Below, piece after piece: positions 53,093 to 55,745 of a DNA stretch of 64,000 nt (position 1 is its first letter; each line of letters starts with the position of its first letter). The translations under genes and the position numbers were made by a program. The DNA comes from Sulfolobus acidocaldarius SUSAZ (lineage in GTDB: Archaea > Thermoproteota > Thermoprotei_A > Sulfolobales > Sulfolobaceae), in NCBI GenBank assembly GCA_000508305.1, contig CP006977.1, positions 838,621 through 902,620 on the forward strand, given 5' to 3'. A model generated the notes under the pieces. That model saw only the letters and a program-made list of their open reading frames with translations. It had not been told where the DNA came from and searched no databases.

Positions 53093-54193
53093 ATGTTATT
53101 TGACTTACATCCTAAGATAGAATTAAGAGAGTTGTTTGGCAGAGGGACAGAAGTAGAATATATTATACACCAGATTATTTCGAGAAATTGGATTATAATT
53201 AGTGGACAAAGGGGAATAGGAAAGACTAGTGTTATGAAGGTTAGTATAAATGAGTTAAAAAAGAGAAATTCTACTGATGGAATATACTTAAACTTAAGAG
53301 GAGTTAAGACACTGAGAGAATTATTATCTCTCCTCATTTCAGAAATAAATAGAAATAAACTTTTCAACATATTCAATATTAACGTTAACCTAAACTTTGG
53401 TCCTTTAGGCGTTGAACTTAAGAGAGGCAGATTGACAGTCCAAAGAGGTTTGCTGGAGTTACTCCTGTCAATAAATAGAGATATGGTTATAGGGCTTGAT
53501 GAGGTTCAGGAACTCTCCCCTGTTAGTAAACCTTTACTAGATGTCTTGGGAAACGTCTTTATGAGTAATCCTAAAGTTAGGTTCATTTTTTCCGGATCCT
53601 ACGTAGGTTTAGTCAAGGCACTATTGAGTCCTAAGGAAGGATCACCTCTGCTTGGGAGACCGCCAGTCGAGGTTAGATTAAGGCCTTTTGATAAAATTAC
53701 ATCAATTAATTTCTTGAAAGAGGGTATGAGGGAGCTAGATGTCGATTTCGAGAATAATAAGGCTGAGGAAGTGGTCAATAAACTTGATGGAATAGTAGGT
53801 TGGTTGACTTTATTTGGTAATAACTATGCCATAAGAAAGTTAAACTATGAGTATTCATTACAGTCTACCATAGAAGAGGGTAAGAGAATAATGCTGGAGG
53901 AGTTAGATCATTTCCTCGAAGGAAGGAATAGAGAGTTATATTTAGCCATATTATCCTCCCTTAAAATTGTCAAAAGATGGAAGGACATAAAGTTCGCTAC
54001 TTCTGTGAAGTTGAAGAGGAGTATTGATGATAAGGAGTTGAGTTCCGCCCTTGAATCCTTGATTAAATACAATTTCATAGATAAAATTAAGGAAGGTGAA
54101 TATCAGATAACAGATCCTATCTTAAGAGAAATAGATTTCGACCATGTGGCTGACTTCCTCCCCGCCCTAAAGGGCGAGGGTTCCGGGCATTAG
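53093..54193 (+). CDS. archaeal AAA-type ATPase with IS-derived C-terminus
   Basis: A 366-residue archaeal ATPase (STAND-like AAA domain with a C-terminal winged helix). Walker A is GQRGIGKTS (residues 38-46), Walker B IGLDEVQEL, sensor region FIFSGSYVGLVKAL, then a winged helix ending YQITDPILREIDFDHV. The last 14 residues (ADFLPALKGEGSGH) are encoded by the right end of the tnpB element. Joining the flanking DNA at the element's ends gives HVVILL and a stop, so the original protein ended only about five residues later and the ATPase is probably still functional. The leader carries a palindromic repeat. Function is unknown; such genes are common in archaeal mobile and defence regions. Confidence 0.85.
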   Translation: MLFDLHPKIELRELFGRGTEVEYIIHQIISRNWIIISGQRGIGKTSVMKVSINELKKRNSTDGIYLNLRGVKTLRELLSLLISEINRNKLFNIFNINVNLNFGPLGVELKRGRLTVQRGLLELLLSINRDMVIGLDEVQELSPVSKPLLDVLGNVFMSNPKVRFIFSGSYVGLVKALLSPKEGSPLLGRPPVEVRLRPFDKITSINFLKEGMRELDVDFENNKAEEVVNKLDGIVGWLTLFGNNYAIRKLNYEYSLQSTIEEGKRIMLEELDHFLEGRNRELYLAILSSLKIVKRWKDIKFATSVKLKRSIDDKELSSALESLIKYNFIDKIKEGEYQITDPILREIDFDHVADFLPALKGEGSGH

Positions 54194-54236
54194 GACTCTG
54201 TCGAGTCCCGCACTTGCCCGGCAGTCGAGAGGCTCA
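54150..54236 (-). ncRNA. putative omega-RNA (TnpB guide RNA) 3' region
   Basis: This GC-rich stretch runs from the tnpB stop to the right end. Pairing arms: CCGGGCA 54183-54189 with TGCCCGG 54215-54221, enclosing GGACTC 54193-54198 and GAGTCC 54203-54208 with a four-base loop; then the terminal GCCC...GGGC hairpin (54164-54175). The 5' part would extend into tnpB. The guide would be read from the ATPase gene just past 54150 (CCACATGGTCGAAATC). This is inferred from characterised TnpB systems; no transcript evidence. Confidence 0.6.
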
Positions 54237-55352
54237 GAGAATCCCATAAAGATTCATAACTGCGACCACATCGCGGTCGTTCTCATAACCACATGAAACA
54301 CACCTAAATTGCCTATACGCATATTCCTTCATTTCACCTTTACATTTCGGACAACGAGTAGAAGTATAAAACGCAGGAACTTTAACTACTTTAAGGCCAT
54401 GCTTTATCGCTTGCCACTCAATCCAGTATTGAACACGACGATACTGCATTAAATACAATTTATCACGAAACGGTTTGGCTAACTTATCAACGTTCTTAAT
54501 CATGTTGTTTAAATCCTCAATAAAAATGGTAGACACGTTATACATTTTAGCTATCTCAACTACCCATTTTCCTGTTTTCTTTGCAAAATCCTCTAGTATC
54601 CGAGTGGCTCTTCTATGAAAAGTGACATATCTATTATGTATCCTCTTGACTGTGTTTACCTTATTACCATACTTTTTTTGAAGTCCTTCAGCCAACGACT
54701 TGTAGTGTTTAGCGTCATCAAGACGTGTAGGTATAATAACATGTTCTTTATCATTACCTACAGTGAGATTCTCCATGTTAACGTCAACAGCAACACCACC
54801 AGACGCTACGGGTGGCTGAATCTCCTTCAGAAAAGTGACTTTAAGGAATGCCTTGTCGTCTACTATCTTCAGTCTAGCTTCCCTAATTTCCCAATCCTTA
54901 TACAGTGTGTAGTTTCTAGGATAACCAATAATGGAAAGATCGCCAACAGAAGTTATGTTAACTTTCATTTTCTCAAGATCAAGTCTATACGATAGTTTGG
55001 GCGTTAGCCACACTGAGAAGCGTTTGATTTTTGGAAACTTTCCTTGCTTAGGGTTTTTCCTCCAGCTATTGTAGACCGCGATGGCGTTCCTATAACAATC
55101 TTCAGTAACTTTGGAGGGCAAATTAAACTTCTCTCTTAACTGTTGATAAAGGGCATCATGTACTTGCTTTATAATATTCTTCGCCGGCTTATTCTTCTTT
55201 AACCAATCCATTACGAAATCGAGTGCTTTACCATACTGAGAAACGAGGTAGAGTAGTCCGGCTGAGGGGGAGATCCTAAACGTGATTGTAGATCGGATCT
55301 CGATTCCCTCATGAGGGTGCTTAGAGTTACTCCCCTTAACCTGACTACTCAT
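54234..55352 (-). CDS. tnpB: TnpB RNA-guided nuclease (IS605 group)
   Basis: A 372-residue TnpB with an apparently intact RuvC site: Asp in GVAVDVNMENLTVGND, Glu in TIFIEDLNNM, and Asp in ENDRDVVAVMNLYG, with the zinc ribbon CPKCKGEM...FRCVSCGYEN between the last two. The N-terminal part (RFNLP-type helices, KQGKFPKIKRFSVWL) is the usual wedge/REC region. The ATG at 55352 lies about 26-30 bases after TTTTTAAAAC and is preferred to the TTG at 55370. The product cuts DNA matching its guide next to a target-adjacent motif, helping the element persist. Confidence 0.92.
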   Translation of the reverse strand: MSSQVKGSNSKHPHEGIEIRSTITFRISPSAGLLYLVSQYGKALDFVMDWLKKNKPAKNIIKQVHDALYQQLREKFNLPSKVTEDCYRNAIAVYNSWRKNPKQGKFPKIKRFSVWLTPKLSYRLDLEKMKVNITSVGDLSIIGYPRNYTLYKDWEIREARLKIVDDKAFLKVTFLKEIQPPVASGGVAVDVNMENLTVGNDKEHVIIPTRLDDAKHYKSLAEGLQKKYGNKVNTVKRIHNRYVTFHRRATRILEDFAKKTGKWVVEIAKMYNVSTIFIEDLNNMIKNVDKLAKPFRDKLYLMQYRRVQYWIEWQAIKHGLKVVKVPAFYTSTRCPKCKGEMKEYAYRQFRCVSCGYENDRDVVAVMNLYGIL

Positions 55353-55745
55353 AAGAGCATAAATGAACAAGTAGTTTTAAAAACTTTTACTAACCATAAA
55401 TGACTAGTTTTTCGTTCTTCTAAATCTACATCCCCGCCCTAAAGGGCGAGGCTCTCATTCTTTTGTAAACCACATTAGTAGATATAGTATTTAAAAGAGT
55501 TTGTTACGATGGATTTATTTGATCAATATTCTTCCTCTATCCAAATAATTAGTTATTATGATGAAAGAACGTGATTATAAAAAATAAATGGAATTTGTAT
55601 AATGCAGTAGGAATTGAGATCATAAGCCTATAAAACTCTTTTATCTCCGTTATTAAGTAATCCAATTAGAAAGGTAAAAAGCATATTACTTTTAAGATTT
55701 CTATATTATTAGCATTTTTCTTTATTCCTTCCTTGCATATATGAG

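Follow-up and report, generated by a model that had tools for sequence, protein, structure and literature searches.

Elements of the IS200/IS605 superfamily are mobilised by the Y1 HUH transposase TnpA, which acts in cis or in trans, and members that carry only tnpB require TnpA solely in trans. The closest described relatives of the element analysed here are the IS1341-like, tnpB-only IS200/IS605 elements, such as those of Sulfolobus islandicus, with which it shares a TnpB with zinc ribbon and RuvC motifs and hairpins at its ends. As in the S. islandicus elements, the insertion point lies on the 3' side of a short, AT-rich motif, no target sequence is duplicated, and the guide is drawn from the right flank. 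Unlike those elements, the motif here is TTAC, the right end reads GTCAG rather than TTCAC, and no Y1 TnpA is detected in this genome. TnpB is known to store the insertion site as a guide and to cut empty copies, and a resulting role in retention of the element, akin to gene drive, has been published (PMC11870625). The present locus resembles that system in that its guide would keep a record of where the element inserted and direct cutting of the empty allele; it differs in that this behaviour is predicted here from sequence, and in that the nearest empty allele carries TCTAC as its target-adjacent motif (TAM) in place of TTTAC. A likeness of another kind is to the Rfam RNA family HgcC (RF00062). 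HgcC1-3 of Thermococcus kodakarensis are transcribed from within transposase genes (PMC4247193), and the function of HgcC was described as unresolved in 2017 (PMC5732400).

The element and its ends

The window, that is, the whole stretch of 64,000 nucleotides analysed, corresponds to positions 838621-902620 of a 2.06-Mb single-contig genome. In it a tnpB element points head-on towards an ATPase gene. The features of the locus are listed below in window coordinates; G001 is a genome of the same genus used for comparison.

53093-54193, + strand: ATPase_2 (AAA) gene (PF01637, E 7.8e-16), native to 54149, the remainder from the element
54150-55464, - strand: tnpB-only IS200/IS605-type element of 1315 bp, delimited by the ends of paralogues and by empty G001 sites of same-ended elements
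54159-54180, - strand: right-end hairpin CCCTCGCCCTTTAGGGCGGGGA, conserved in paralogues
54234-55352, - strand: tnpB ORF, 372 amino acids from ATG (Pfam Cas12f1-like_TNB, PF07282, E 6.9e-20)
55370, - strand: TTG start, from which tnpB would encode 378 amino acids
55431-55452, - strand: left-end hairpin GCCTCGCCCTTTAGGGCGGGGA, conserved in paralogues
55453-55464, - strand: left tip AAAAGAATGAGA, common to paralogues, with AATGA inside
55465-55468, - strand: TAM TTAC (GTAA on the + strand; TTTAC with the next base outward)

The ATPase frame runs across 54149/54150 and ends ...DFDHV-ADFLPALKGEGSGH-stop, the element supplying ADFLPALKGEGSGH, 14 extra residues, together with the stop codon. This tail, with its ADFLPALKGEG, is present in none of the ATPase homologues examined, and the initial annotation was correct in placing a TnpB element at the 3' end of the ATPase gene and in regarding the tail as alien to the protein. 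Closer homologues terminate no more than about 10 residues past DPILREIDF; a 77%-identical match occurs in a Sulfolobaceae metagenome-assembled genome. The insertion point lies downstream of these last conserved residues, and a low cost to the ATPase protein is therefore plausible.

Relatives of this ATPase gene in genomes G002 (loci L043/L118), G012 (L053/L119), G027 (L054) and G030 (L055) likewise carry convergent TnpB elements or remnants, in or next to the 3' part of the gene. In G002 the element end provides the ATPase stop codon (TTG TAC TGA). The G030 element and the G027 remnant belong to another TnpB type. No convergent element was found near 11 more distant ATPases. The recurrence is a pattern that was seen on looking after the initial finding, without a formal baseline.

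TnpB retains RuvC E and D motifs (FIEDLNN and NDRDVVAVMN) and the zinc ribbon CPKC..CVSC. Alignments to TnpB/Cas12f structures in the PDB span the E and the last D motifs; the first RuvC aspartate was read from sequence alone, and a match to PF01385 fell below the cut-off of that model. Elsewhere in the genome there are three more near-full copies (90-92% identical) and about 55 additional hairpins. The window tnpB is intact, with dN/dS of 0.18-0.25 against these three copies; values of about 0.2 in an intact gene argue that it was under purifying selection until recently. One full copy (L003, genome positions 93942-95265) splits an apparent PstB-like ABC-transporter ATPase gene (..VKIEGEIY / FMGNNIFEMDQ..).

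The right end at 54150 agrees with the initial annotation: it is shared by the other three full copies and by the majority of the short ones. Right ends read ..GGAAGTCAG^ or ..GGAGGTCAG^ (here and below a caret marks a junction), with an aligned consensus of ..GGGGAGGA(A/G)GTCAG^. When the edges of copies are aligned, TTAC^AAAANRAYGARA-GCCTCGCC is common to almost every left end in the genome; thus TCATTCTTTT is element sequence, the motif is TTAC, and AATGA is internal. The left end had previously been put at 55455, nine bases short of the true end at 55464, and AATGA had been put forward as a candidate TAM, a role that about 17 G001 sites assign to TTAC. With these ends the element (54150-55464) belongs to the tnpB-only group of the IS200/IS605 superfamily, and its target is TTAC. 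Subterminal hairpins, a criterion for that superfamily, are present at both ends. Insertion 3' of a fixed short motif without target duplication is seen for same-ended short elements compared with G001; this criterion is read from the short elements, and the window copy's own site has also lost DNA.

Many of the short copies are one-hairpin elements of 43 bp, of which the genome carries about 45. These read TTAC^AAAATGAYGAAA-GCCTCGCCCTTTAGGGCGGGGA-GGAAGTCAG^, a single hairpin between the left and the right tip of the TnpB element. They have the appearance either of full elements that collapsed when their two end hairpins recombined or of very small mobile derivatives. G001 lacks many of them, which makes these recent, yet no Y1 transposase was found. 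No site was found at which one of the two genomes, this one or G001, has a full element and the other a 43-bp element. Related right-end patterns, whether of short or of full elements, were seen in 17 of the 31 family genomes. The window contains the following hairpins.

8205-8226, - strand: hairpin
about 9975-10009, + strand: hairpin
49045-49066, + strand: hairpin with variant ends
62357-62378, + strand: hairpin

We considered the idea that the elements insert systematically at G^TAA stop codons, supplying C^TGA, and rejected it, as most of 48 do not. Three short elements, L009 (116529), L078 (1996951) and L022 (2009756), do lie next to long ORFs just before a G^TAA stop, as does one element in G002 (L118/L043). 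At such insertions the right end reads CTGAC on the strand of the gene, with TGA in register, and the gene keeps a stop. The window locus is out of register for such an insertion.

The empty site and the missing DNA

The nearest empty site was found in G001, whose ATPase is 96% identical. There the 3' sequence of the gene runs ..GACCATGTGGGTAGAACGGTCTAA with no element, and CATGTGG directly precedes the G of GTA, matching the prediction of the corrected ends. The allele, CATGTGG-GTAGAACGGTCTAA, encodes DHVGRTV-stop, giving a protein that ends ..DFDHVGRTV-stop. The initial annotation held that the original sequence could be recovered by joining the flanks, with an ending of HVVILL-stop. The sequence TCATTCTTTTG, which that join would place beside CATGTGG, is absent there in G001, which has 110 bp between the two flanks. 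G001 is an empty-site genome whose sequence at the join differs, an outcome that the initial annotation had itself named as a refutation. Following the 110 bp, G001 reads TAAACCACATTAGTAGATATAG, which is the sequence flanking the far side of the element here.

54149-54150, no strand: junction short of about 110 bp present in G001, from the alignment to that genome

In element orientation, the sides of the 110-bp segment in G001 are CTAC on the right and TTAT on the left, each one change from TTAC, and a TA microhomology is present at the segment. The possibility that the segment is a mobile insert was rejected since it has no relative elsewhere in either genome. Joining the window flanks at the corrected ends gives an in-frame DHVGKPH-stop. 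With 110 bp missing relative to G001, this flank-joined allele may never have existed; as the comparison involves two genomes, G001 may instead have gained the 110 bp, or they may have been deleted in an unrelated event. At the equivalent position G001 lacks the two genes, enoyl-CoA hydratase-like and acyl-CoA synthetase-like, that lie beside the element here (about 55546-58378).

Both flanks could be located in G001 for about 21 insertion sites. Seventeen of these show no real gap (two display 1 or 16 bp, counted as alignment noise), and the remaining four lack 109, 267 and 624 bp and, for the window element, 110 bp. About 17 short-element sites are uninterrupted in G001, the left flank ending exactly with TTAC and the right flank starting exactly past the GTCAG of the element, with no duplication. 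At about half of the uninterrupted sites the G001 motif is altered (TTAG, TTAT, etc.), which is not surprising at such divergence. The gaps outside the window, with TTAC on both sides in G001, are these.

1492380-1493704 of the genome (L004): insertion short of 109 bp relative to G001
2016708 of the genome: insertion short of 267 bp relative to G001
2017070 of the genome: insertion short of 624 bp relative to G001

At all three, G001 has an exact TTAC at the left junction and another before the right flank. One G001 segment reads GTTTTAC^CATTC..CCACTTAC^ATTCTCC, another TATATTAC^CTTGC..TTCTTAC^CTAAAG and the third ATATTTAC^TCTAA..ATCTTTAC^AAGTATT. With TTAC on both sides, the right flank of a gap-associated element begins at a target site of its own, so that some elements occupy places from which the DNA separating two target sites has disappeared. 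The G001 reading frame is unbroken across the 109- and 624-bp stretches, which places the loss on the side of this genome. The 267- and 624-bp cases may not be independent: they are two opposite-facing 43-bp elements, 0.36 kb apart, at one other ATPase-type gene, which they destroyed. A same-orientation pair of the same rare variant still stands at 1572778 and 1573673, 895 bp apart. In the library searched, no paper listed for adjacent deletions or solo ends with IS605 dealt with such findings. Missing DNA between two TTAC sites is the unexpected part of the locus.

The predicted guide RNA and retention

Two features of a putative guide RNA span the right end of the element.

54150-54260, - strand: predicted omega-RNA (guide-RNA scaffold) at the 3' end of tnpB, ending ..GGAAGTCAG, from a sub-threshold HgcC match, the fold and conservation in four copies
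54122-54149, - strand: predicted guide CCACATGGTCGAAATCTATTTCTCTTAA, antisense to the 3' end of the ATPase gene, from the sequence and the G001 alignment

The 3' end of tnpB is foldable and conserved in the four copies, with no covariation. The Rfam HgcC model matches 54140-54210 (- strand) with 32.5 bits (E 4.8e-5). Like HgcC, the predicted RNA has a 3' end of ..CGCCCUUUAGGGCGGGGAGGA(A/G)GUCAG, followed by variable sequence; unlike HgcC, it scores below the gathering score of 50, and by Rfam's rule it therefore falls outside the family. TnpB guide RNA is a possible identity for HgcC; in the library searched, no paper listed for HgcC together with TnpB dealt with this link. Below-cut-off HgcC matches also coincide with the right ends of elements across the family (loci L138-L167). 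At several of these loci the tnpB ORF overlaps or abuts the HgcC match.

The guide predicted from the right end (CCACATGGTCGAAATC..) is identical to the empty allele of G001 over 28 of 28 nt, as the initial annotation had anticipated, and no second target was found elsewhere in this genome. The TAM of the G001 allele is TCTAC versus TTTAC here, a single mismatch. For SisTnpB, whose TAM is TTTAA, a change at -5 was without effect and a change at -4 had the second least effect (PMC11043419); given this tolerance, the G001 allele may or may not be cut by the predicted guide.

The further suggestion that the element is held at this locus by its own guide fits the general role published for TnpB (PMC11870625), which is not specific to this locus. 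PF01797, the model for Y1 TnpA, has no match in this genome or in G001, and it has a match in 11 of the 31 genomes searched. The Y1 transposase may have been lost from this genome; as it is needed in trans alone, its absence limits present mobility and not classification. With no Y1 detected, nothing obvious excises the element today, and retention may have nothing to oppose; current mobility and a present need for retention are thus doubtful. The window copy is an ordinary TnpB element in an interesting position, and the retention idea is existing knowledge.

Origin of the locus

We consider it likely that a TTAC-targeting, tnpB-only element with self-guided retention sits in the last codons of the ATPase gene, with about 110 bp of host DNA missing between TTAC-like sites. 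The ATPase frame reads through the right end and gains its 14 residues there. A nuclease carrying a guide from the 3' end of the ATPase gene would cut the uninserted allele beside its TTAC-like motif, and such cutting, judging from known TnpB biology, would favour retention of the element. On this reading the junction is not a clean one, about 110 bp being missing between the left and right TTAC-like sites, as DNA is at three other junctions. The loss could have followed from recombination between two nearby same-orientation insertions, of the kind still seen at 1572778 and 1573673, or from a Y1 transposase that used two TTAC sites, and we think that the missing pieces arose by one of these two routes. 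The comparisons establish the anatomy, ends and motif of the element, the empty site and the DNA missing relative to G001; what the guide does, whether it retains the element, and how and when the DNA at the window locus was lost are what we infer.

In a different history, which we rate as unlikely, the element inserted cleanly into the TTAC of an allele CATGTGG-GTAAACCACATTAG (...DHVGKPH-stop), and an unconnected event either added the 110 bp in G001 or had already deleted them here. Clean insertions are indeed the majority at the other sites (about 17), the flanks join with an in-frame stop, and the region is fluid, two extra genes just downstream differing between the genomes. Against this, the difference coincides exactly with the left junction of the element; a loss of the same kind, flanked by two TTAC sites, is seen at three other junctions; and nothing related to the 110-bp segment was found elsewhere in either genome to identify it as mobile.

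A bolder form of the proposed loss by a Y1 transposase is tentative and, as a whole, improbable. Here a transposase reaction at two TTAC sites would, in this lineage, put elements, that of the window included, in place of the intervening DNA, joining the left end to the first TTAC and the right end to the base after the second. In addition, the many 43-bp elements could be scars of collapsed full elements that keep TAM and target apart and so would escape cutting by TnpB.

A regulatory role, in which the ATPase would be controlled by the convergent TnpB with its guide RNA (mutually antisense to the ATPase mRNA) and the element kept for this purpose, is very improbable. The convergent elements or remnants at ATPase orthologues in G002, G012, G027 and G030, their absence near the more distant ATPases and the purifying selection on tnpB copies would suit such a role. 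Yet those other elements do not share one position, another TnpB type accounts for two of them and several are decayed, and survival of insertions beside a dispensable gene would give the same picture. The initially proposed arrangement, an element at 54150-55455 with the motif AATGA and an ATPase tail of HVVILL-stop, does join in frame but is almost certainly wrong, being contradicted by the conserved left tips of about 50 related ends and by about 17 uninterrupted orthologous sites together with the G001 ATPase allele.

The corrected ends and motif of this Sulfolobaceae TnpB element matter because guide and TAM assays depend on them. Joining the flanks of such an element does not always yield the original allele: host DNA that the sister species has is gone at four of about 21 comparable sites, at three of these exactly between two target motifs. 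These observations raise the testable question of the route by which IS200/IS605-type elements remove the DNA beside them, and that of the origin of tiny one-hairpin derivatives in genomes with no detectable transposase.
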